Assembly: GCA_002729525.1 (NCBI GenBank)
Contig: PBYI01000033.1
Coordinates: 1 to 64,000, forward strand
Reading direction: 5' to 3'
DNA from: Nocardioides sp.
GTDB lineage: Bacteria; Actinomycetota; Actinomycetes; Propionibacteriales; Nocardioidaceae
DNA: 64,000 bases
In this document: in pieces, positions 3,262 to 14,113 of the stretch
How positions within the stretch are numbered: the stretch's first letter is position 1
Layout of the letters: each line of letters starts with the position of its first letter
The notes under the pieces: generated by a model
Databases searched by the model: none
What the model was told of the DNA's origin: nothing
The model's input: only the letters and a program-made list of their open reading frames with translations
Program-made: the position numbers and the translations under genes

Positions 3262-3638
3262 GCGACGCTGCTCGCCTGGAGGGCGGCCTCGCGCCAGGTG
3301 TTGCACAGGTCCTCGACGAGGGCCAGGCAGCCGGCGGTGACCTCGGGGTCGCGGCGCATGTTGGCGCGCACGAGCTGCAGGTGGAGGAAGTCGTAGATCG
3401 AGGCGAGCTGCGGCCCGCCCTCCCAGCTCTCGGAGTCGAGGCTGGAGCGGAGCTCGAGCACGATGTCCTGGGCGTGGAGGAGCGCGGGGTGCGCCGAGGC
3501 GTGGTCGCCCTGCTGCTGGGCCTCCAGCCCGCGACGGACGTCGAGGACGAGGCGCTCGTAGAGCATGACCAGCAGCCGGGCGGGGCTCGCGGTCGCGACC
3601 GATGCATCCATGTATGCGGCGCGTGCGTTGACGTTCAT
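3258..3638 (-). CDS. fliS: Flagellar export chaperone FliS
   Basis: A 126-residue protein of normal FliS length. The N-terminus (NARAAYMDASVATASPARLL) and the following VMLYERLVLDVRRGLEA are typical of FliS. FliS binds the disordered C-terminus of flagellin in the cytosol, keeps it from polymerising and delivers it to the export gate. In species with FliW it also affects CsrA control indirectly, through free flagellin. The gene lies 24 bp after fliD, has an AGGAAGG Shine-Dalgarno, and overlaps the next gene by 4 bp. Confidence 0.93.
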   Translation of the reverse strand: MNVNARAAYMDASVATASPARLLVMLYERLVLDVRRGLEAQQQGDHASAHPALLHAQDIVLELRSSLDSESWEGGPQLASIYDFLHLQLVRANMRRDPEVTAGCLALVEDLCNTWREAALQASSVA

Positions 3639-3662
3639 GGGGTGCCTTCCTTGACTTCCCGT

Positions 3663-4994
3663 TTACTCGTACGTCGGCAGTGAGGCCAGCTGACCGGCCA
3701 GCCAGTTCGACTGGCTGCTCATCTGGCTGAGGGCGGTCTCCAGCGCCGTGAACTGCCGCTCGAGCGCCGTACGGCGCAGCTCGAGGCGGCGGTCCCACTC
3801 GTCGACGCTGTCCTCCATCCGGTCGATGCCGGACTGTCGCCCGGTGATCGCGGTGGAGAGTGAACCGTCGTAGGGGTCGCTGGCCGCGGTGGCGACCGAG
3901 GCGACCTTGGCCGCGAAGCCGGAGCCCGCGGTGGTGAACATGTCCGCCGTCCCGGTGGGGTCGGCGGCGTAGGCGGCCTTGAACGTCGTCTCGTCGAACT
4001 CCAGCCGGCCGTCCCTGGTCGTCTGGATCCCGTACGCCGCCAGCGAGGTGCCGCCGGTGGTGCGGATGGTGTCCAGCAGCTGGCTGCGCAGCTGGCGGAC
4101 CGTGCCGTCGCCGGTGAGCGGCGAGGAGGTGCTGCCGTCGGCGCTGACGGCGGTCTTCACGTCGATCTCGGCGAGCGCGGCGTTGACGGCGTCGACGAGG
4201 GCCTTGACCTTGCCCGACATGCCGGCGGTGTCGCGGGTGACCCCGACGGTGACGACCGTGCCGACGGTCGCGGAGCCTGCCAGCGAGAGCGAGACCCCGG
4301 GGACGACGTCGTCGAAGGTGCCGCTGGCGCTGGTGACGACCAGGCCGGCGCCGAGGTCGATCGAGGCGTCCGAGCCGGCCCGGACGGTGGCGCCGCCGAG
4401 CAGCGGCGAGCCGTCCTGGGCGGTGAGGTCGAAGTCCTCGGTGAGTCCAGTGGCCCTCGACTCCACCAGCAGGCGGTAGGAGTCGGTGCCGACCTTGACC
4501 AGGGTGGCCTGCAGGCCTGTGTCGTTGGCCGGGTCGTTGAGGGCGTCGGCGAGGCCCTGGAGGGTGCCGTCGCCGGTGTCGATGGACACGGGCGAGCCGT
4601 CGAACCGGTCCAGCGTCACGATCGTGCTCGCGCCGGTGACCACGTCGGTGGTCGCGGCGGCGTTCGCGAAGCCCAGCTGGTGGGTGCGCGCGACGCCGGT
4701 GATGGTGACGTTGAGCTGGGTCGGGGCGGCGTCGTCGCCGGTGGTGACCGTCAGCTCGGTGCTGGAGCTGGTCGCGGTGAACGGCGCCCAGACGGTGGGG
4801 TCGGCGAGCGCCTCGGCCTTGGTGGCCAGCGACGCGAAGGTCTTGTTGACCGCCTGGAGGCTGGTGACGACGAGGTTCTCCGAGGAGATGCGCGTCTGCA
4901 GCCGCTGCTGCGGGATCGCCTCCAGCTGCATGAGCTGGTCGATGATGGTCGCGGAGTCCAGCCCGCTGGCCAGACCGCTGATGACAGCGCCCAT
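3663..4994 (-). CDS. fliD: Flagellar filament cap protein FliD (HAP2)
   Basis: A 443-residue protein with the FliD N-terminus (ISGLASGLDSATIIDQLMQLE) and the coiled-coil C-terminus expected of the filament cap (EDSVDEWDRRLELRRTALERQFTALE). FliD sits at the filament tip and helps exported flagellin fold and insert. The central region is Thr/Ala-rich and variable, as usual. The ATG is preceded by GAGGAGG. It lies downstream of flagellin and just before fliS, a common order. It may have its own promoter or depend on read-through from fliC. Confidence 0.93.
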   Translation of the reverse strand: MGAVISGLASGLDSATIIDQLMQLEAIPQQRLQTRISSENLVVTSLQAVNKTFASLATKAEALADPTVWAPFTATSSSTELTVTTGDDAAPTQLNVTITGVARTHQLGFANAAATTDVVTGASTIVTLDRFDGSPVSIDTGDGTLQGLADALNDPANDTGLQATLVKVGTDSYRLLVESRATGLTEDFDLTAQDGSPLLGGATVRAGSDASIDLGAGLVVTSASGTFDDVVPGVSLSLAGSATVGTVVTVGVTRDTAGMSGKVKALVDAVNAALAEIDVKTAVSADGSTSSPLTGDGTVRQLRSQLLDTIRTTGGTSLAAYGIQTTRDGRLEFDETTFKAAYAADPTGTADMFTTAGSGFAAKVASVATAASDPYDGSLSTAITGRQSGIDRMEDSVDEWDRRLELRRTALERQFTALETALSQMSSQSNWLAGQLASLPTYE

Positions 4995-5037
4995 GTCGTG
5001 TGCCTCCTCTCCGACTCCGGGTGGTGCGGTGGAGGGC

Positions 5038-5060
5038 GGGGCCCGTGGGGGGTGGGCCCC
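5038..5060 (-). terminator. Candidate hairpin after fliC
   Basis: GGGGCCC and GGGCCCC arms flank a 9-nt loop in the fliC-fliD gap. A second imperfect hairpin (CACCCCGG and CCGGGTGTG) lies at about 5113-5138, directly after the fliC stop. Neither has a U-tract on the minus strand. They may attenuate rather than end transcription, giving more flagellin than cap mRNA. Confidence 0.35.
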
Positions 5061-5139
5061 GACCTCCGGTCCGGGTGTCGGCCGGGGTGGTGGGGAGGGT
5101 CGTTCCCCGGTCCACCCCGGCCGTCACGCCGGGTGTGGA

Positions 5140-6279
5140 TCAGCCACGCAGCAGGCTCAGCACGCTCTGGGGAGCGGAGTTGGCCTGGGCGAGCATCGCG
5201 GTGCCGGCCTGGGAGAGGATCTGCGACCGGGTGAAGCTCATCATCTCCTGCGCCATGTCTGTGTCGCGGATCCGGCTCTCGGACGCCGAGAGGTTCTCCG
5301 AGGTCACGTTCAGGTTGTTGATCGTGTGCTCGAACCGGTTCTGCAGGGCACCGAGGTTGGCGCGGCTGGTGCTGACGGCGGCGATCGCGGTGTCGAGCGC
5401 GTCGATCGCCGAGGTGGCGCCGGCCTTGGTGGACAGGTCCACCGTGCCCAGACCGAGGTCGGAGCTGGAGAAGCCGCCGGAGCCGGTGGCCGTGTTGGCG
5501 GTGTCGGTCTTGGCGCCGGCGAAGCCGGTGCCGGTGATGGTGATCGCGGACGCGGTGACGTCGGCGTTCTTCATCTGGATCTCCAGGCCACCGGTGGAGG
5601 TGACCTTCGCGGTGAACGCCGAGGCGAAGGCGTCGTCACCGTTCAGCTGGTCGGCGATGTTGTTCGCGTCGGTGCTGGCGGTGAGTGCGGCCGTGGTGAC
5701 CGAGACGCCACCCGCGGAGAAGGTCGCCGTGGCGGCAGTCGTCGAGGCGGCACCGTTGGCGTAGGTCGCCTTCACGCCCTGGGGGGCCGAGGAGACGATG
5801 TCGACCTGGATGGTGTCGCCGGCGGCGTAGCCGACCTGGAAGTCCTTGCCGGTGAAGGTGCCGTCGAGCAGGTTGACGTTGTTGAACGTCGTCTTGCTCG
5901 CGATCCGGTCGAGCTCGCTGACCAGAGCGGTCGACTCCGACTGGATGGCGTCGCGCGAGGCCTGGTCGTTGGAGTCGTTGGCGGACTGCACGGCGAGGTC
6001 GCGCATGCGCTGCAGGATGGAGTGCGTCTCGGTGAGCGCACCCTCAGCCGTCTGCACGACGCTGACGCCGTCCTGCGTGTTGCGGACGGCGACCTTGAGG
6101 CCACCGATCTGCGAGCGCAGACCCTCGGAGATGGCAAGGCCGGCCGCGTCGTCGGCGGCACGGTTGATGCGGAAGCCGCTGGAGAGCTTCTCCAGGCTCT
6201 TCGACATCTGGTTCTGCGTGACCGACAGGTTGCGGTAGCTGTTGATCGCGTCGATGTTCTGGTTGATGCGGAGACTCAT
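5140..6279 (-). CDS. fliC: Flagellin
   Basis: A 379-residue filament subunit. The conserved D0/D1 ends are intact: the N-terminus opens SLRINQNIDAINSYRNL with KLSSGFRINRAADDAAGLAIS after it, and the C-terminus carries NRFEHTINNLNV and ends QSVLSLLRG. The middle ~150 residues are Ala/Thr/Gly-rich and variable, as in surface-exposed D2/D3 regions. It is the only flagellin gene in the window. It is preceded by a sigma-28-like promoter, a ~50-nt leader with two candidate CsrA sites, and an AGGAAGGA Shine-Dalgarno 7 nt from the ATG. Expression is therefore likely controlled by the sigma factor encoded next door and by CsrA/FliW. Confidence 0.96.
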   Translation of the reverse strand: MSLRINQNIDAINSYRNLSVTQNQMSKSLEKLSSGFRINRAADDAAGLAISEGLRSQIGGLKVAVRNTQDGVSVVQTAEGALTETHSILQRMRDLAVQSANDSNDQASRDAIQSESTALVSELDRIASKTTFNNVNLLDGTFTGKDFQVGYAAGDTIQVDIVSSAPQGVKATYANGAASTTAATATFSAGGVSVTTAALTASTDANNIADQLNGDDAFASAFTAKVTSTGGLEIQMKNADVTASAITITGTGFAGAKTDTANTATGSGGFSSSDLGLGTVDLSTKAGATSAIDALDTAIAAVSTSRANLGALQNRFEHTINNLNVTSENLSASESRIRDTDMAQEMMSFTRSQILSQAGTAMLAQANSAPQSVLSLLRG

Positions 6280-6286
6280 GATGCGT

Positions 6287-6323
6287 TCCTTCCTGGGGCG
6301 AGTCGGTGGGCCCGTCCGTGGGC
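6287..6323 (-). promoter_or_regulatory. Two candidate CsrA-binding sites in the fliC leader
   Basis: Read on the minus strand, 6323-6310 is GCCCACGGACGGGC, a 4-bp stem with an ACGGAC hexaloop presenting GGA. This is the classic shape of a CsrA site. The Shine-Dalgarno at 6294-6287 is AGGAAGGA and contains a second ANGGA. A hairpin site plus a site over the ribosome-binding site matches how CsrA represses Bacillus hag. csrA and fliW lie about 5 kb away. Confidence 0.55.
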
Positions 6324-6334
6324 TCCGCGCTCCC

Positions 6335-6361
6335 CATCGGCGGGCGACGGGGGCGCTTGAG
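6335..6361 (-). promoter_or_regulatory. Sigma-28 (FliA/WhiG)-type promoter of fliC
   Basis: The minus strand reads CTCA (6361-6358), 16 nt, then GCCGATG (6341-6335). The same arrangement occurs before cheA and flgN. It resembles the known FliA/WhiG/SigD consensus TAAA-N15/16-GCCGATAA. The predicted transcript starts near 6328. Confidence 0.65.
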
Positions 6362-6391
6362 GAAAGTGCGGGGGAATTTGTCCCGGCCGGT

Positions 6392-6407
6392 CCTGGTACG
6401 TACCAGG
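6392..6407. promoter_or_regulatory. 16-bp palindrome upstream of the fliC promoter
   Basis: CCTGGTACGTACCAGG is a perfect palindrome. Its core lies 32 bp upstream of the fliC -35 element. Fourteen of its bases recur exactly upstream of cheA (11574-11587). It is a plausible operator for a dimeric motility regulator not encoded here. Confidence 0.5.
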
Positions 6408-6440
6408 GGGATCGGGCGGGACCCCGGGTCCGGACGTGGA

Positions 6441-6470
6441 ACGACCCGTGGACCGGGGTCCACGGGTCGT
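6441..6470 (-). terminator. Terminator hairpin after the flagellar sigma gene
   Basis: A perfect 14-bp inverted repeat with only 2 nt between its arms (ACGACCCGTGGACC and GGTCCACGGGTCGT). It lies 58 bp after the sigma-factor stop and upstream of the fliC promoter. It has no T-tract, which is usual for high-GC actinobacteria. It should insulate fliC from sigma-gene transcription. Confidence 0.65.
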
Positions 6471-6528
6471 GTCCTGCGTGCGGTGCGTGCGTACGACGAC
6501 GAGGCGCGCGTCGTGCGCACGCGGAGGG

Positions 6529-7410
6529 TCAGGCGCTGGTGGCGTGCACCGCAGCCGCCGCGACCCGGCCGGTGCCGGCGGCAGCGGCGTGCCGGCTGGC
6601 GACCGCCTGGAAGTAGGCGGCGCGGCGCTGGGCGGCGCAGCCCTGCGGGCGCGGGTGCTCGGCCACCAGGTGCGGGTCGAGCGAGAAGTTCATCGCGTCG
6701 CGCAGCAGCACGAGGGCCTCGGCGCGGATCTGGGAGACCCGCGACTCGGTCACCCCGAGACGCTCGGCGATCTCGGCCATCGGGCGCTCGGCGAGGAAGT
6801 ACTCCTCGACGACCACCCGCTGGCGCTCGGGCAGCTCGGCGATCGCCGCGACGAGGTACTGGAGGCGCTCGCGGTGCTCGACGACGTCGGAGGGCAGCGG
6901 GGCGCTGCTCACCAGCACGTCGGCCAGCGTGGTCTCGCCGTCGGGCGAGGCGTTGAGCGCGACCAGGTTGGCGCGGGCCACGTCGGAGTCCGAGGCGTCG
7001 ACGTCGGCGGTGCTCCAGCCGAGGGCCGCGGCGACCTCGTGGTTCTCCGGCGGCCGGCCCAGCGCGTTGGCGAGCTGGGTGCGGGCGGCCTCGAGGTCGC
7101 GGCTGCGCCGACGGACCGAGCGCGAGGCCCAGTCGATCTGGCGCAGCTCGTCGACGACCGCGCCGCGCACGCGGCTGGCGGCGTACCGCGGGAAGGGGAC
7201 GCCGCGCTCGGGGTCGAACGACCGGGACGCCTTCACCAGGGCGGTGAGACCGGCGGACTGGAGGTCGTCGGCACTGACGTGCTCGGGGACCCGGGCCATG
7301 GTCTCGCGGACGATGTAGCCGACCAGCCGCATGTGGTCGAGGACGAGCTGCTCGCGCTCGCCGTCGGTCAGGGTGCCGGCGGTCTCGTGGGGGGTGGACT
7401 TCGTGTCCAT
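6529..7410 (-). CDS. FliA/WhiG-family RNA polymerase sigma factor
   Basis: A 293-residue sigma-70-family protein of the sigma-28 type. Region 2 is clear (DDLQSAGLTALVKASRSFD, RYAASRVRGAVVDELRQIDW), a region 3 segment follows, and region 4 carries the promoter-reading helix (MAEIAERLGVTESRVSQIRAEAL). An Ala-rich tail of ~50 residues after region 4 is unusual and dispensable-looking. Its place between fliC and the flgN operon, and the sigma-28-like promoters at three flagellar units, make it the likely motility sigma factor. The start is the ATG with a GAGG upstream. Longer in-frame extensions enter the divergent promoter region. No anti-sigma factor FlgM was identified in the window. Confidence 0.9.
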   Translation of the reverse strand: MDTKSTPHETAGTLTDGEREQLVLDHMRLVGYIVRETMARVPEHVSADDLQSAGLTALVKASRSFDPERGVPFPRYAASRVRGAVVDELRQIDWASRSVRRRSRDLEAARTQLANALGRPPENHEVAAALGWSTADVDASDSDVARANLVALNASPDGETTLADVLVSSAPLPSDVVEHRERLQYLVAAIAELPERQRVVVEEYFLAERPMAEIAERLGVTESRVSQIRAEALVLLRDAMNFSLDPHLVAEHPRPQGCAAQRRAAYFQAVASRHAAAAGTGRVAAAAVHATSA

Positions 7411-7736
7411 GGGGTGCCTCGTTCCGACCCGGGTTGTGGGGGTTGCCCGGGTTGAGCGCCCTGCAGTGCCTCGCCCCGGGTGGGGTCCGACGCGGGAGCC
7501 CAGTGGGGGGGACGGGACCTTCGGCCCCGACAGAGGTGGTGCAGGGGTCCTCGTACGAGAGGTTCCCCCGGACCAGTCCCTCCCAGGATCTGGGTTCCGT
7601 GTCCCTGCGGCTCCCATCGCAGTGACAGGAACAGGTTTGTCGGAGAATCCCCCGGGGGGAAGGGCTTCACGCCAAAACGGCCCGGACGGAATCGGATGAC
7701 CAGGACATTTGTCCTCGGGCCAATCTTGCGGTTGCT
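7411..7736. other. Divergent intergenic region between sigma gene and flgN
   Basis: About 470 bp separate the two start codons, and no gene is visible. Minus-strand GCCGAAGG at 7525-7518 could be the -10 of the sigma gene, but the matching -35 position reads CCTG, a poor fit. CTCGTACGAG at 7550-7559 is a short palindrome. AGGACATTTGTCCT at 7702-7715 is a 6-2-6 inverted repeat whose complement shares GGACAAAT with a segment upstream of fliC (6371-6384). Confidence 0.4.
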
Positions 7737-7763
7737 CTCAGGTCGGGACGAGGTGTGCCGAAG
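7737..7763 (+). promoter_or_regulatory. Sigma-28-type promoter of the flgN-flgK-flgL unit
   Basis: CTCA (7737-7740), 16 nt, then GCCGAAG (7757-7763). Spacing and sequence match the fliC and cheA promoters. The leader to flgN would be about 115 nt. Confidence 0.6.
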
Positions 7764-7886
7764 GTCATCTCTGTCGGTGTCGTGCGTCGCGCGACGGTGG
7801 TCTGGTCCGCACCCCGGGTCCTCGCCACCAGCCGGCGACCGGACCGCCACCGGACGGGCGGCCCGGACGTCCCTGAGGAGGATGCC

Positions 7887-8363
7887 ATGGAGAAGCTCGG
7901 GCAGGTCCTGTGGCAGGAGCGTGAGCTCCTGGACACGTTGCACTACCGGCTGGAGGTCGAGCAGCTGGTGCTCGCCAGCGGCCGTAGCCACCACCTGATG
8001 CGCGCCGCGCGCGACGTTGACGCCGTCCTCACCACCCTGCGTGAGACCGAGGTCCTGCGCGCCGTCGCGGCCGACGCCGCGGCCGAGGAGCTGGGGCTCG
8101 CCCCCAGCCCGTCGCTGCGCGAGCTGGCCGAGGCGTCCCCCGAGCCGTGGCGCACGATCCTCGACGAGCACCGCCAGGCGTTCTCGCGGGTCACCGAGCA
8201 GATCTCGGCCATGGCCGACACCAACCGTGAGCTGCTGACCCAGGGCTACCGCTCCGCGCGTGAGGCGCTCGCCTCGCTCGGCGAGCCGGCGACCGAGAGC
8301 TACCGGCCCGACGGTCGGGTCGTCACCGCGGCTGCCCGCCGCCTCCTCGACCAGAGCCTCTGA
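7887..8363 (+). CDS. flgN: FlgN-type flagellar export chaperone
   Basis: A 158-residue helical protein beginning MEKLGQVLWQERELLDTLHYRLEVEQL, typical of the FlgN family. FlgN binds the hook-filament junction proteins FlgK and FlgL and delivers them to the export apparatus. It lies directly upstream of flgK and flgL, the usual arrangement. The start is fixed by a GAGGAGGA Shine-Dalgarno 4 nt before the ATG. An upstream in-frame ATG at 7755 would lie inside the sigma-28-like promoter and is rejected. Confidence 0.87.
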   Translation: MEKLGQVLWQERELLDTLHYRLEVEQLVLASGRSHHLMRAARDVDAVLTTLRETEVLRAVAADAAAEELGLAPSPSLRELAEASPEPWRTILDEHRQAFSRVTEQISAMADTNRELLTQGYRSAREALASLGEPATESYRPDGRVVTAAARRLLDQSL

Positions 8364-8409
8364 GGCCGGCCGTGCACAGCGACATGCCTGCCCGAGGGAG
8401 GGGGACTCG

Positions 8410-9816
8410 ATGAGCGGCACCCTCTCCTCCCTCAACACCGCGCTCAGTGCGATCCGTTACAACCGCGTCGCCATGGACGTGGCGAGCAACAACGTCGCCA
8501 ACGTCAGCACCGAGGGCTACACCCGTCGTCGCGTGGTCGGCGAGGCCGAGGGCGCCCCCCAGGTGGCCGCCCTCTGGTCGCGGTACGACGGCGCCGGCGG
8601 CGGCGTGCGCACCGGCGCGATCGACCGGCTCTCGGACTCCCTCATCGTCGCCCGCGCCCGCACCGAGCACGGCTCGCTCGCCTACCTCGAGTCGCGCGCG
8701 ACCTCGCTGGCCCGCCTGGAGAGCGGCGTCGGCGAGCCCGGCGACTCCGGTGTCGCGGCAGCGCTTGCCGACTTCCGCTCGGCCTGGCAGGACGTCGGCA
8801 ACGACCCCGCCGGCGACGCCGCCCGCACCCAGGTGCTCACCCGGGCCGCGGCGCTCGCCGACGCCTTCCACGCCCAGGCGGCCAACGTCGAGGGCGAGGC
8901 CTCGATGCAGCGCCTGACGATGCAGGGCCTGGTGTCGGAGGTGAACACGGCCGCGGCCGAGCTCGCCGAGACCAACCGGGCGATCGCCTCGGCCCGTCTC
9001 GACGGCGTCGACGTCAACGACATGCTCGACACCCGCGACCGGCTCGCCCTCAACCTGGCCGAGCTGACCGGCGGCGTGGCCACCGAGCGCACGGACGGCG
9101 GCGTCGACGTCACCGTCGGCGGCGTCGCACTGGTCACCGGGCGCACGGCCGCCCAGCTGACCATCGCCACGGGCGTCAATCCGGACGGCACCTCCGACGG
9201 CCTGCCGGTGACCCTCGCGGTCACCAGCGGCTCCGGCGCCTCCCAGGTGACGACGCCGCTCACCAGCACCCCGCGCGGCGAGGTCGGCGCGTCGCTCGAC
9301 CTGCTCACCACGACCCTGCCGGCGTACGCCGCGGGGCTCGACGCGCTGGTCGCCGACTTCGCCGACACGATCAACACGCTGCACGCCGGGGCCTACGACC
9401 TCGACGGCAACCCGGGGGCGACGTTCTTCACCTACACGCCGGGCTCCGCGGCGTCGTCGCTGTCGCTCGCCGTGACCGACCGGCGTGCCGTCGCCGTGTC
9501 GGCGTACCCCGGCGGCGTCCTCGACGCCTCCGTGGCCGACGCCCTCGGCACCGCCGGCCAGGCCGAGCACGACTACCAGAGCCTGGTCAACGGCCTCGGC
9601 ACCGAGGTCGCCTCCAGCCGCCGGCTGGCCACCACCCAGTCCCTCCTGACCGCCCAGGTGGACTCCGCCCACGAGCAGCTCGCGGGCGTCAACCTCGACG
9701 AGGAGATGGTCTCGATGCTCTCCGCCCAACGCGCCTACGAGGCTGCGGCCCGGGTGATGACCGTGGTCGACTCGGTGCTCGACACCCTGATCAACCGGAC
9801 CGGGGTGACCCGCTGA
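8410..9816 (+). CDS. flgK: Flagellar hook-associated protein 1 FlgK
   Basis: A 468-residue hook-filament junction protein. The N-terminus opens MSGTLSSLNTALSAIRYN, with MDVASNNVANVSTEGYTRRR as the rod/hook family signature. The C-terminus (VNLDEEMVSMLSAQRAYEAAARVM) matches the D0 domain shared with other axial proteins. Exported through the flagellar type III system without a Sec signal. Its TGA overlaps the flgL start by one base (TGATG), so translation is coupled. The window has no hook or basal-body genes; those must lie elsewhere. Confidence 0.95.
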   Translation: MSGTLSSLNTALSAIRYNRVAMDVASNNVANVSTEGYTRRRVVGEAEGAPQVAALWSRYDGAGGGVRTGAIDRLSDSLIVARARTEHGSLAYLESRATSLARLESGVGEPGDSGVAAALADFRSAWQDVGNDPAGDAARTQVLTRAAALADAFHAQAANVEGEASMQRLTMQGLVSEVNTAAAELAETNRAIASARLDGVDVNDMLDTRDRLALNLAELTGGVATERTDGGVDVTVGGVALVTGRTAAQLTIATGVNPDGTSDGLPVTLAVTSGSGASQVTTPLTSTPRGEVGASLDLLTTTLPAYAAGLDALVADFADTINTLHAGAYDLDGNPGATFFTYTPGSAASSLSLAVTDRRAVAVSAYPGGVLDASVADALGTAGQAEHDYQSLVNGLGTEVASSRRLATTQSLLTAQVDSAHEQLAGVNLDEEMVSMLSAQRAYEAAARVMTVVDSVLDTLINRTGVTR

Positions 9817-10703
9817 TGGTCTCGATCCGCGTCACCCAGGGCATGCTCGTCGACCGCTCCCTCTCCTCCCTGCAGTCGGGACTGGCGAGGATGGCGGTCA
9901 CCCAGGAGAAGCTGTCGACCGGCAAGGACGTCAACCGTCCCTCCGACGACCCGACGGCCTCGACCACCGCGATGCGGCTGCGCGCCGACGTCGCCTCGAC
10001 CGAGCAGCACGTCCGCAACGCCCAGAGCGCCGACGGGTGGCTCAGCGTCACCGACTCCGCTCTCGGCACCATGGCCGACCAGGTACGTCGCGCGTCCGAC
10101 CTCGCGCTCCAGGCGGCCAACGCCACCGCGAGCGGCGCCGGCCAGGAGGCCTTCGCGGCCGAGATCGACCAGCTGCGAGACAGCCTGCTGTCGGTGGCCA
10201 ACACGACGTACCTCGGGCGTCCGGTGCTCGGCGGCATCACCGCCGGCAGCCAGGCGTTCGACGACTCCGGTGCCTTCGTCGGCGTGGCCGGCGAGGTGGT
10301 GCGCACGATCGGGCCGGGTGTCACGGTGCGCATCGACGCGCTCGGCACCGACGTGGTCGGGCCGGACGGCGCCAACCTCTTCGACGACCTCGGCGCGCTG
10401 TCGACGGCGATGCGGGCCGGCGACAGCGCCGGGGTGCAGGCCGGGATCGCCGCGCTGGCCATCCGTCTCACCCAGATCACCTCGTCGCAGGCCACGATCG
10501 GTGCGGCCCAGAACCGTGTCGACGCGACCGTCAACCAGACCGAGGACCGGCTGGTGTCGCTGAAGCTGGCGCTGTCGGAGGCCGAGGACACCGACCTGGC
10601 CGCCGCGGTCGTGGAGATGCAGGTGCACGAGGTCGCCTACCAGGCGGCTCTCGCCTCCACCGCGCGCGTCCTGCAGCCGAGCCTGGTGGACTTTCTGCGA
10701 TGA
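9816..10703 (+). CDS. flgL: Flagellar hook-associated protein 3 FlgL
   Basis: A 295-residue flagellin-like junction protein. The N-terminus (IRVTQGMLVDRSLSSLQSGLARM, then KLSTGKDVNRPSDDPT) is diagnostic of FlgL. The C-terminus carries a coiled coil ending VAYQAALASTARVLQPSLVDFL. It joins FlgK to the flagellin filament. Its start overlaps the flgK stop, and fliW follows 71 bp later. Confidence 0.94.
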   Translation: MVSIRVTQGMLVDRSLSSLQSGLARMAVTQEKLSTGKDVNRPSDDPTASTTAMRLRADVASTEQHVRNAQSADGWLSVTDSALGTMADQVRRASDLALQAANATASGAGQEAFAAEIDQLRDSLLSVANTTYLGRPVLGGITAGSQAFDDSGAFVGVAGEVVRTIGPGVTVRIDALGTDVVGPDGANLFDDLGALSTAMRAGDSAGVQAGIAALAIRLTQITSSQATIGAAQNRVDATVNQTEDRLVSLKLALSEAEDTDLAAAVVEMQVHEVAYQAALASTARVLQPSLVDFLR

Positions 10704-10774
10704 TCGACACCCGCCCACGGCCGCGCCCGCCCCGTGCGGAGGCCGCCCGCGAGACCAGGACCGGAGGAGCCACC

Positions 10775-11176
10775 ATGAGCGTCGCGACGGAGCTCCCGGT
10801 CGTGGAGATGGTGCACCCGATGCCGGGCTTCCCCGGTCACTCGCGCTTCGCGCTGGTGCAGCTCGACGACGACGGCGTGCTCTGCTCGCTGCGGTCGCTC
10901 GACGACCCCGACCTGCGCTTCCTGGTGGTGCCGGCACACGTGTTCTTCCCCGACTACGCGCCGGAGATCTCCGACAGCGTGGCCCAGGACATCGGCGTCA
11001 CCTCGGCCGACGAGGTGCTGCTGCTGACGGTGCTGACCGCCGGTGAGTCGCTGGCCGGCACCACCGCCAACCTGCTCGCCCCGGTCCTGGTCAACACCGC
11101 CACCCGGCGCGCGACCCAGGTGATCCTGGACGACCCGCAGCTCGCGACCGACGTCCCGCTCCTGTCCGCCGGGTGA
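10775..11176 (+). CDS. fliW: Flagellar assembly factor FliW
   Basis: A 133-residue FliW-family protein containing the PMPGFPGHSRFALVQLDDDG and FFPDYAPEISD segments seen in the family. FliW binds either CsrA or newly made flagellin. When flagellin accumulates it takes FliW away, leaving CsrA free to repress flagellin translation. GGAGGA precedes the ATG by 6 nt. It is followed by csrA after 55 bp, the usual pairing. Confidence 0.93.
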   Translation: MSVATELPVVEMVHPMPGFPGHSRFALVQLDDDGVLCSLRSLDDPDLRFLVVPAHVFFPDYAPEISDSVAQDIGVTSADEVLLLTVLTAGESLAGTTANLLAPVLVNTATRRATQVILDDPQLATDVPLLSAG

Positions 11177-11219
11177 GCCCGGTCGGCCCGGGATGCCCCG
11201 CACGCACCCCTCGGACCAG

Positions 11220-11231
11220 TAGCGTGGACCC
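11220..11231 (+). promoter_or_regulatory. Leaderless promoter -10 of csrA
   Basis: TAGCGT (11220-11225) lies 6 nt before the csrA ATG and no Shine-Dalgarno fits between them. This is the TANNNT-N6-start signature of leaderless actinobacterial transcripts. csrA would then be transcribed separately from fliW. Confidence 0.5.
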
Positions 11232-11474
11232 ATGCTGGTCCTGAGCCGCCGGGTGGGCGAGAGCGTGGTGATCGGCGACGACGTCACCGTCACCGTGCTG
11301 GAGGTCCGCGGCGACGTCGTGCGGATCGGCATCGACGCGCCCCGCTCCGTCGCGGTCAACCGCGCCGAGCTGCTGCGCCAGCTCGAGGACAGCAACCAGG
11401 CGGCTGCGTCGCCCAGCGACGACAAGGTCGCCAGCCTCGCCGAGGCGCTGCGCGCCCGTCGCCCACCGGGCTGA
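11232..11474 (+). CDS. csrA: Carbon storage regulator CsrA
   Basis: An 80-residue RNA-binding protein. It begins MLVLSRRVGESVVIGDD, keeps the VRIGIDAP segment and has Arg (R44 of the usual family) near AVNRAE. CsrA dimers bind GGA motifs in mRNA leaders and block ribosome access. The expected target is fliC, whose leader has two GGA sites. The C-terminal ~20 residues are a slightly long, charged tail. CsrA is rare in actinobacteria without flagella. Confidence 0.95.
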   Translation: MLVLSRRVGESVVIGDDVTVTVLEVRGDVVRIGIDAPRSVAVNRAELLRQLEDSNQAAASPSDDKVASLAEALRARRPPG

Positions 11475-11573
11475 CCGACGCCGACCCCTCCGGGGCGCCC
11501 GTCGACCTGCGGACTTGCCCGGATGTGCCACTCGTACGCCGCTGACCTGCGACGACGCGACTGACATGCGTCA

Positions 11574-11589
11574 CCTGGTACGTACCACC
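11574..11589. promoter_or_regulatory. Palindrome upstream of the cheA promoter
   Basis: CCTGGTACGTACCA (11574-11587) matches 14 bases of the palindrome upstream of fliC. TGGTACGTACCA is the symmetric core. It lies 15 bp upstream of the cheA -35 element, versus 32 bp at fliC. Confidence 0.5.
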
Positions 11590-11602
11590 GGGCCGCCTTT
11601 CC

Positions 11603-11629
11603 CTCAGGTGCCTCCGCGCCACGCCGATG
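11603..11629 (+). promoter_or_regulatory. Sigma-28-type promoter of cheA
   Basis: CTCA (11603-11606), 16 nt, then GCCGATG (11623-11629), identical in layout to the fliC promoter. The leader to the cheA ATG would be only about 20 nt and contains GGAGGAGG. Confidence 0.65.
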
Positions 11630-11656
11630 TATCCGGTGTCACGCGGAGGAGGACGC

Positions 11657-14113
11657 ATGGACGACGACGCCGAGATCGTCGCGGAGTTCCTGGTCGAGAG
11701 TCACGAGAACCTCGACCGACTCGACCGCGACCTCGTGGAGCTGGAGCAGCAGCCCGACTCCAAGGAGCTGCTCTCGAGCATCTTCCGCACGATCCACACG
11801 ATCAAGGGCACCAGCGGCTTCCTCGCCCTGGACCGCCTGGAGGCGCTGACCCACGTCGGCGAGAACCTCCTCGCCCGGCTGCGCGACGGCCGGATGACCA
11901 TGACGACCGGCACCGCCGGCGTCCTGCTCGCCATGGTGGACACCGTGCGCGCCCTGCTCGACGCGATCGAGCGGGAGGGCTCCGACGCCGCCCCCGACGT
12001 CCCCGTCGAGGACGTCGTCGCCCGCCTGGAGCGGGTCCTGGAGGGCGAGAAGGACGAGGTGTCCGCGCCGCCCGCCGCGCCCGTGGCCGAGACCACCGAC
12101 GAGCCCGAGGTCGGGACGGACGCGGCGGACGCCGTCGTCGAGCCCGCCACCGAACCCGGACCGGAGGACGCCGCGCCCGTCGCGGACCCCGGCTCCGCAC
12201 CGACCGCCGTGGACGCGGAGCCGACGCCAGCACCTGTGGGGGGTGCGGTCGGCTCCGCAGGGGCGGTCCCCGTCGAGGAGGCGCCCATGGCGACCGACGA
12301 CGTGCCCGAGCCCGTGCTCGTGGCCCCCGAGCCGACCCGTGCAGCAGCGACCGAGCCGGTCGTCGACACCGGCGCGGAGGTGGCGGTCGAACCGGTGGTC
12401 GAGGCGACCACCGAGCCGGTCGCCGAGCCGGTCGCCGAGGCCGCCGCCGAGCCGGACGGCGAGCAGCGCCGCGGCCTGGTCGACGCCACGGTGCGGGTCG
12501 ACGTCGACCTGCTGGACGGCCTCGTGCAGCTGGTCGGCGAGCTGGTGCTGACCCGCAACCAGATCCTCCAGCGCACCGACGCGGCGTCCGACGTCGAGCT
12601 GGTGCGCGCCGCACAGCGACTCGACCTGGTGGCCAGCGAGCTCCAGGAGGCGGTGATGCGCACGCGCATGCAGCCGATCGGCCAGGTCTGGTCGAAGATG
12701 CCGCGGATCGTGCGCGACCTCGCCCACCAGCTGGGCCGCGAGGTGCAGCTCGACATGGACGGCCACGACACCGAGCTCGACCGCTCGCTGCTCGAGGCGA
12801 TCCGGGGCCCGCTCACGCACCTGGTGCGCAACGCGCTCGATCACGGTCTCGAGCCGCCGGCCGAGCGCCTCGCCGCGGGCAAGACCGCCAGCGGGCGCCT
12901 GCAGCTGCGGGCCTACCACGAGAGCGGCCAGGTGGTCGTCGAGATCGCTGAGGACGGCCGCGGCATGGACCCGGCGAAGATCGGCGCCGTCGCGGTCTCG
13001 CGCGGCGTCGTCACCCGCGAGGCGCTCGCCCGGATGGACACCCGCGAGATCATCGACCTGGTGTTCCGGCCCGGCTTCAGCACCGCCGAGGCGGTCACCA
13101 ACGTCTCCGGACGCGGCGTCGGGATGGACGTCGTCCGTACCTCGATCGAGGGCATCGGCGGCAGCGTCGACCTCTCCAGCGCGGTCGGCCGGGGCACCAC
13201 CGTTCGTGTGCGGATCCCGCTGACGCTGGCGATCATCCCCGCCCTGGTGGTGGGGGAGAATGGCGAGCGCTACGCGATCCCGCAGGCCAACCTGGTCGAG
13301 CTGGTCCGCCTCGAGGGTGCCGACCTGCGTCGCGACGTGGAGGTCCTCGCCGGTGCGCCGGTGCTCCGCCTGCGCGGCCGGCTGCTTCCGCTGGTCTCGA
13401 TGTCGCACGTGCTCGGGGGCGACCCGCTGGCGGCGGGCGAGCTGCCCGACGCGCTCACCATCGTGGTGGTGCAGGCCGACGACGCCCGCTTCGGGCTGTG
13501 CGTCGGCGAGGTGCACGACACCCAGGAGATCGTGGTCAAGCCGATGGGTCGCCAGCTCAAGGCGATCCCGATGTACGCCGGCGCCACGATCATGGGCGAC
13601 GGCCGGGTGGCCCTGATCCTCGACGTCGCCGGCATCGCCCGCGACCGGGTGATCGGCGCGCCCGAGCCGGTGGCGGACGAGGGACGCGGTGCAGCCGTCG
13701 ACAGCCGGGCGCTGCTGGTGCTCGAGGTGTCGTCGGGCCGCCGGGCCGCGCTGCCGCTCACCGCGGTCTCGCGCCTGGAGGAGTTCGACGTCACCCGCAT
13801 CGAGCGCTCGGGGAGCACCGAGGTCGTGCAGTACCGCGGCGGCATCCTGCCCCTGGTGCGCCTGGCCCCGGCGATCGGACTGGTCGACACCGCCGCCGCC
13901 GACGGGCAGGTCTCCGTCGTCGTGCACGAGGGAGAGGGGCACCGCGTGGGCATCGTGATCGACCGGGTCCTCGACGTGGTCGAGGAGAACGTCGTGGCGA
14001 CGGAGGTCGGCCGGCGTGCCGGCGTCCTCGGCTCGGCGGTCGTGCAGGAGCGGGTCACCGACCTCGTCGACCTCGACGCGGTGGTCCGCCCGGCCCTGGC
14101 AGGTGCCCGATGA
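11657..14113 (+). CDS. cheA: Chemotaxis histidine kinase CheA
   Basis: An 818-residue CheA. Domains in order: an HPt domain (residues 1-105, phospho-acceptor His47 in TIHTIKGTSGF), an Ala/Pro/Glu-rich linker of ~150 residues with no recognisable CheY-binding P2 fold, the P3 dimerisation helices (LVQLVGELVLTRNQ), the ATPase domain (LVRNALDHGLEPP, EDGRGMD, GRGVGMDVV), a CheW-like P5 domain, and a second CheW-like domain (~residues 670-818). The doubled C-terminal domain could widen receptor-array contacts. The start follows GGAGGAGG, and the upstream in-frame ATG at 11627 lies inside the promoter. The stop overlaps cheW by 4 bp. No cheY, cheB or cheR lies in the window. Confidence 0.93.
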   Translation: MDDDAEIVAEFLVESHENLDRLDRDLVELEQQPDSKELLSSIFRTIHTIKGTSGFLALDRLEALTHVGENLLARLRDGRMTMTTGTAGVLLAMVDTVRALLDAIEREGSDAAPDVPVEDVVARLERVLEGEKDEVSAPPAAPVAETTDEPEVGTDAADAVVEPATEPGPEDAAPVADPGSAPTAVDAEPTPAPVGGAVGSAGAVPVEEAPMATDDVPEPVLVAPEPTRAAATEPVVDTGAEVAVEPVVEATTEPVAEPVAEAAAEPDGEQRRGLVDATVRVDVDLLDGLVQLVGELVLTRNQILQRTDAASDVELVRAAQRLDLVASELQEAVMRTRMQPIGQVWSKMPRIVRDLAHQLGREVQLDMDGHDTELDRSLLEAIRGPLTHLVRNALDHGLEPPAERLAAGKTASGRLQLRAYHESGQVVVEIAEDGRGMDPAKIGAVAVSRGVVTREALARMDTREIIDLVFRPGFSTAEAVTNVSGRGVGMDVVRTSIEGIGGSVDLSSAVGRGTTVRVRIPLTLAIIPALVVGENGERYAIPQANLVELVRLEGADLRRDVEVLAGAPVLRLRGRLLPLVSMSHVLGGDPLAAGELPDALTIVVVQADDARFGLCVGEVHDTQEIVVKPMGRQLKAIPMYAGATIMGDGRVALILDVAGIARDRVIGAPEPVADEGRGAAVDSRALLVLEVSSGRRAALPLTAVSRLEEFDVTRIERSGSTEVVQYRGGILPLVRLAPAIGLVDTAAADGQVSVVVHEGEGHRVGIVIDRVLDVVEENVVATEVGRRAGVLGSAVVQERVTDLVDLDAVVRPALAGAR

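Follow-up and report, generated by a model that had tools for sequence, protein, structure and literature searches.

The window, i.e. the whole stretch of 64,000 nucleotides of a Nocardioides sp. contig (PBYI01000033.1) that was analysed, encodes a flagellin, a FliA/WhiG-type sigma factor and the chemotaxis histidine kinase CheA (Table 1); genes for FlgL and CsrA, with NCBIfam scores above the cut-off, are also present nearby. The regions upstream of fliC and cheA have one 14-mer in common. It was originally predicted to be a 14-bp palindrome, and the two copies are indeed identical, but the 14-mer itself is not palindromic and the symmetric part common to both sites is the 12-mer TGGTACGTACCA. 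Both copies of the 12-mer are non-coding and each is located, as predicted, upstream of a sigma-28-like promoter with GCCGATG. The distance from the site to the TCA of the -35 element is 33 nt at fliC and 16 nt at cheA (the 32 and 15 bp given originally fit if the -35 is read as CTCA), and the site centres are positioned 39.5 and 22.5 nt upstream of TCA, respectively, which corresponds to approximately -72 and -55 if transcription is assumed to start 7 nt past the -10. The two spacings differ by 17 bp, approximately 1.6 helix turns, and the sites are out of helical phase.

Table 1. Features at the fliC and cheA loci, numbered from the first nucleotide of the window
Feature	Position	Strand	Basis
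fliC, flagellin	5140..6279	-	best NCBIfam models flagellin, scores under the curated cut-offs
Sigma-28-like promoter of fliC (TCAAG ... GCCGATG)	6335..6360	-	pattern
Site 1, upstream of fliC: perfect 16-bp palindrome CCTGGTACGTACCAGG; 14-mer CCTGGTACGTACCA at 6392-6405, 12-bp core TGGTACGTACCA at 6394-6405	6392..6407	.	sequence
Inverted repeat of 30 nt, 3' of the sigma-factor gene, between that gene and site 1	6441..6470	.	sequence
FliA/WhiG-type sigma factor	6529..7410	-	TIGR02479, 188.9 bits vs cut-off 189.6
Site 2, upstream of cheA: same 14-mer; perfect 12-bp palindrome TGGTACGTACCA at 11576-11587	11574..11587	.	sequence
Sigma-28-like promoter of cheA (TCAGG ... GCCGATG)	11604..11629	+	pattern
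cheA, chemotaxis histidine kinase	11657..14113	+	best NCBIfam models CheA, scores under the curated cut-offs

The FliA/WhiG-type sigma factor presumably reads both the fliC and the cheA promoter. Relative to the flagellar sigma-28 consensus as given in the part of PMC8325347 that was consulted (-35 TAAA, -10 GCCGATAA), the promoters in the window are alike in their -10 sequence, GCCGAT, and in that a FliA/WhiG-type factor is encoded next to fliC, whereas their -35 sequence is TCA(A/G) instead of TAAA and the palindromes are no part of the known promoter. The TCA(A/G) form is seen repeatedly in the genus, at flagellar operons as well as at cheA and fliC; a sigma-28-like promoter of the same form is present upstream in 77 of 82 cheA regions, and a similar one is visible by eye before most of 49 other fliC genes. 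Elsewhere in the genome, an 18-bp palindrome, GTGGGACAGGTGTCCCAC, followed by TGGTACGGACGG is located directly before the sigma-28-like promoter of an unassigned ORF (L220, ~1285-1345; G000:C48).

The 30-nt inverted repeat is probably the terminator of the sigma-factor gene. For the two sites, a terminator or an RNA hairpin was ruled out by eye, the palindrome being loopless and a separate inverted repeat following the sigma-factor gene.

Rarity and conservation of the shared palindrome

The original prediction named two findings that would speak against it, a 14-mer that is frequent genome-wide and one that is not conserved upstream of these genes in relatives. With respect to the first, the 14-mer is not common: its core, which is AT-richer than the genome, occurs exactly twice in 5.02 Mb (5,020,691 bases, 71 contigs), at the fliC and cheA sites, and three further places match it with one mismatch. 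Having only two exact copies in the genome, the word does not represent a dispersed repeat family. Moreover, since the flanks of the two sites are unrelated (28 of 120 positions identical; beyond the 12-mer only two left-hand bases in common), promoter duplication and gene conversion were ruled out.

The second point turned out differently. Among the 215 genus genomes, 82 have a cheA match and 93 a FliC match, and the fliC upstream region was analysed for 50 of the latter. A site with up to two mismatches is absent from the 81 other cheA and 49 other fliC regions, the best having at least three, i.e. conservation upstream of fliC and cheA is lacking in all relatives examined. In the family (341 genomes), a sigma-28-like promoter preceded by the 10-bp core was detected in nine genomes: this one (both motility sites), one HutC locus (see below) and seven others for which the 3-kb surroundings match neither the motility nor the HutC queries. 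This is the only genome of the 341 with site and promoter at motility genes. The 10-bp core is also absent from 26 named loci of a second collection (24 include the cheA start and 20 the fliC start; the best identities of CheA segments are 64-83%; 19 of the 26 are titled Nocardioides and some evidently duplicate the genus-genome set), among which no closer relative keeping the site was found.

A general motility operator was ruled out even within this genome, where five flagellar/chemotaxis promoters of the sigma-28 type have no match better than four mismatches (flgB 5, FlbD-like 5, fliM 4, flhA 4, cheB 6; gene names partly by eye); for the unassigned ORF on C48 and a ClpC-like gene the best matches have three and six mismatches, respectively. 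The site pair is taken to be private to this lineage, as far as examined, and since no relative examined has sites at fliC and cheA, the two appear to have been added recently, at the level of the species, and to be of an ordinary kind. The data do not support a motility system that is conserved or categorically new.

Lack of conservation is also what would be expected if the two copies were chance palindromes without function in a high-GC genome, noticed through scanning for repeats, and all rarity tests are post hoc to the choice of word in the original prediction. In line with chance, the window has eight recurring perfect 12-bp palindromes of different sequence, TGGTACGTACCA being one of them, and loose matches are no rarer than in shuffles: a search of the window allowing two mismatches found only the two sites, yet 16 of 100 shuffles also gave two, and by itself this search is weak rarity evidence, not significant. 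In addition, among 1322 cross-genome pairs of fliC and cheA upstream regions one also shares 14 nt. Against chance stand the AT-richness of the word relative to the genome together with its mere two exact copies in 5 Mb, and the outcome of resampling the non-coding segments within 3600-14113 by a first-order Markov model, in which an identical perfect 12-bp palindrome appeared in two segments in 0.1% of 20,000 runs. In the stretches of 100 nt before the two -35 elements (fliC and cheA), the longest common word has 14 nt here compared with 6-10 nt in 27 other genomes, a within-genome outlier among 28 (of 47 genomes, 19 were left out with the promoter pattern too near the segment start and 28 had both regions usable). 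Taken together, we consider a chance origin unlikely; if an operator function were not confirmed, the case would illustrate that checks across the whole genome and in relatives are required before an exact repeated palindrome of a high-GC genome is labelled a motility operator.

Because the sites are exact, symmetric and non-coding, are present in two copies in 5 Mb and lie just upstream of sigma-28-like promoters, a shared operator for the two motility promoters is probably the best reading. The 12-mer was found in no paper of the literature searched. The general pattern TGGTNNNNACCA, with 139 places in the genome compared with 44 for its control, was too unspecific as a search pattern and was dropped.

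The 12-mer at HutC loci and a candidate regulator

Exact copies of TGGTACGTACCA are present in 31 of the 215 genus genomes, this one included, and the reversed control in four. In 27 of the 30 other genomes the word adjoins a gene for a DasR/NagR-like GntR-HutC regulator (26 of 29 loci in a first survey, and the 30th locus); the background outside HutC loci is three of 214 other genomes. The usual context of the word in these genomes is TTGGTACGGTCTGGTACGTACCAGTT, and at 24 of the 30 sites a second TGGTAC/GTACCA half-site is present in tandem, which both window sites lack. An operator-like element, TTGGTACGGTCTGGTACGTACCAG, recurs beside the NagR/DasR-like gene in L006-L033 and L263 (e.g. L006, 1488-1514). 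The GntR-UTRA neighbour in L006, the one member compared, has DasR and YvoA/NagR as its best solved relatives. Of the 27 loci, L006 and L005 are the two at which the HutC neighbours were typed by family, and in both amino-sugar genes are adjacent: in L006 an SIS protein (closest model glucosamine-6-phosphate deaminase) and a PTS EIIC (closest model GlcNAc), both under the cut-off, and in L005 nagB (above the cut-off). Genus members that are motile and have kept the word next to a HutC gene do not have it at their motility promoters.

The operator had been attributed to an undescribed motility regulator, and in the open literature searched we found no described transcriptional regulator of Nocardioides flagella. 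Since the 12-mer in the genus mainly adjoins DasR/NagR-like GntR-HutC genes, this attribution is not the best reading; the shared operator is retained, while its regulator is better read as being of this known type.

According to the parts of the respective sources that were consulted, four bases separate GT from AC in HutC motifs and their general consensus centre is MTAK (PMC4494728), Arg38 and Arg48 of NagR read the G at -5 and -4 (PMC4333415), and the DasR consensus is A(G/C)TGGTCTAGACCA(G/C)T with the centre CTAG (PMC4398421). Compared with the dre operators of DasR (Streptomyces coelicolor) and NagR/YvoA (Bacillus subtilis) as described there, TGGTACGTACCA is alike in its TGGT/ACCA outer half-sites, in the HutC spacing GT-N4-AC and in having G at -5 and -4 of the half-sites. 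It is unlike them in its centre, ACGT and not CTAG or MTAK (the HutC-adjacent word of the genus has ACGT as well), and in its placement, both exact copies being at the fliC and cheA promoters and not at the gene of their own regulator or at amino-sugar genes; the window sites are putative operators. The operator-like word at the NagR/DasR-like genes of the genus has a 12-mer identical to that of the window, but there it is usually tandem and beside the regulator gene, whereas the window has single sites and the assembly no such gene.

Specifically, the assembly encodes no orthologue of the genus HutC regulator (36% for the best UTRA match), and matches to its SIS neighbour in this genome are only 33-35%; the HutC/amino-sugar cluster of the genus seems to be missing from this genome (listed completeness 99.05%). 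Three UTRA (HutC-type) proteins are encoded in the genome. One of these, on C34 (G000:C34:31031-31744), has DasR as its best solved relative and is the only one with Arg at both aligned guanine-reading positions (NagR Arg38/Arg48), the other two having it at one; matches to it at E <= 1e-40 are present in 198 of the 215 genus genomes. We take the DasR-like C34 protein as the best candidate binder in this genome. An operator deduced from its own promoter was ruled out, as TGGTAC is absent from 30 promoters, its own and those of 29 orthologues. A sigma-28-like promoter pattern without an assigned ORF was observed at a distance of approximately 1 kb from another feature of interest, a HutC-type gene that is one of the three (L221, 1200-1240, and L225; G000:C56).

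We propose tentatively, giving it somewhat less than an even chance, that in this lineage one dimeric transcription factor uses the two sites as operators to tune the sigma-28-type promoters of both genes, fliC and cheA. The factor would most likely belong to the GntR/HutC family, perhaps as a sugar-sensing regulator of the DasR/NagR type. The HutC type is put first because the 12-mer has the HutC spacing and most often adjoins a DasR/NagR-like gene in the genus. A dimer, perhaps of HutC type, would bind both sites and modulate fliC and cheA transcription, and the outcome would be a metabolite-controlled adjustment of flagellin and chemotaxis; we infer the protein binding, the identity of the binder, the direction of its effect and its effector alike. 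HutC proteins, like GntR proteins in general, are mostly repressors. The offset of 17 bp (~1.6 turns) speaks against class-I activation working in the same way at the two sites; repression would fit better, or the offset would be neutral for it. Counted against a HutC-type binder are the lack of conservation, the absent regulator, the centre ACGT, the lack of TGGTAC at the C34 promoters, the motile genus members in which the word stays at the HutC locus and off the motility promoters, the sites being out of helical phase, and the missing tandem half-site of the relatives, which makes us slightly less confident. If confirmed, the arrangement would connect a nutrient-sensing regulator directly with swimming and chemotaxis, and would provide a clear example of rewiring that took place recently through two point-like new operators.

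The same evidence on rarity and position would hold for a real operator pair that is bound by a regulator of another family, e.g. LacI-type, and whose identity with the HutC-adjacent word is coincidental. LacI-type operators frequently have a central CG. Such a regulator would accord with the absence of the genus HutC regulator and of the tandem half-site here, and with a CG centre that is unlike the HutC consensus in the consulted part of PMC4494728. However, the exact 12-mer is rare outside HutC loci (3/214), and its use by an unrelated factor would be a coincidence; we regard another family as doubtful, although it has to be taken seriously.

Other elements upstream of cheA and fliC in the genus

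Palindromes upstream of cheA (arm of at least 5, gap of at most 3) were surveyed in 77 of the 82 regions, five having been dropped with the promoter not recognisable or the upstream sequence too short. In 14 genus genomes (e.g. L043, L045 and L047), which apparently are one lineage, the palindrome GGGACYNGGTCCC lies upstream of the cheA -35 at a constant spacing, its centre being 22-24 nt away. We take this box to resemble a DevR-type box. The likeness to DevR/OsdR (DosR) boxes is limited to GGGACYNGGTCCC of these other lineages, and the window sites do not match the OsdR consensus, AGGGCCGATCGGCCCT, as it stands in the consulted part of PMC5069765. Besides cheA, one other context of GGGACYNGGTCCC recurs. 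A GGGACYNGGTCCC regulon was rejected, the forward counts (15 over 14 genomes) not being above the reversed control (25).

The cheA copy in the window might be the local version of a position-fixed regulator site, represented in other lineages by GGGACYNGGTCCC with an equal spacing to the -35, with regulator and site having diverged together. A palindrome with its centre 22-25.5 nt before the cheA -35 is indeed present in 17 of the 77 regions compared with 0-7 per other bin, and the centre here is at 22.5 nt. Yet 14 of these 17 are one motif and look like one lineage, and without them the remaining 3/63 equal the background; GGGAC-N2-5-GTCCC is present in none of 50 fliC regions, and the fliC site of the window is 17 bp further out. 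A site of this kind appears very improbable. We also consider it improbable that a metabolite-sensing GntR regulator of the DasR type has been wired directly onto the fliC and cheA promoters via two identical new operators and that the different palindrome at the same -35 distance in front of sister-lineage cheA reflects a turnover of operators, and possibly of the regulators too, at one docking position that stays fixed before sigma-28 promoters.

Upstream of fliC, several relatives (L123-L129, L131 and L140) have long inverted repeats with arms that diverge yet remain complementary and with the 3' arm overlapping the fliC -35; these may terminate transcription of the upstream gene or form a regulatory structure. 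Finally, the fliC leader in the window has a hairpin (6310-6323, minus strand) with a GGA-bearing hexaloop (ACGGAC) before the ribosome-binding site of fliC. An A-N-GGA loop is present in 49 of 50 fliC leaders; the stem has 4 bp or more in 47 of the 50 and comes in 15 variants. Both csrA and fliW (the latter named by eye) are in the same cluster as fliC. In Bacillus subtilis, the hag leader carries a CsrA-binding site, and by analogy the fliC leader hairpin looks like one as well.
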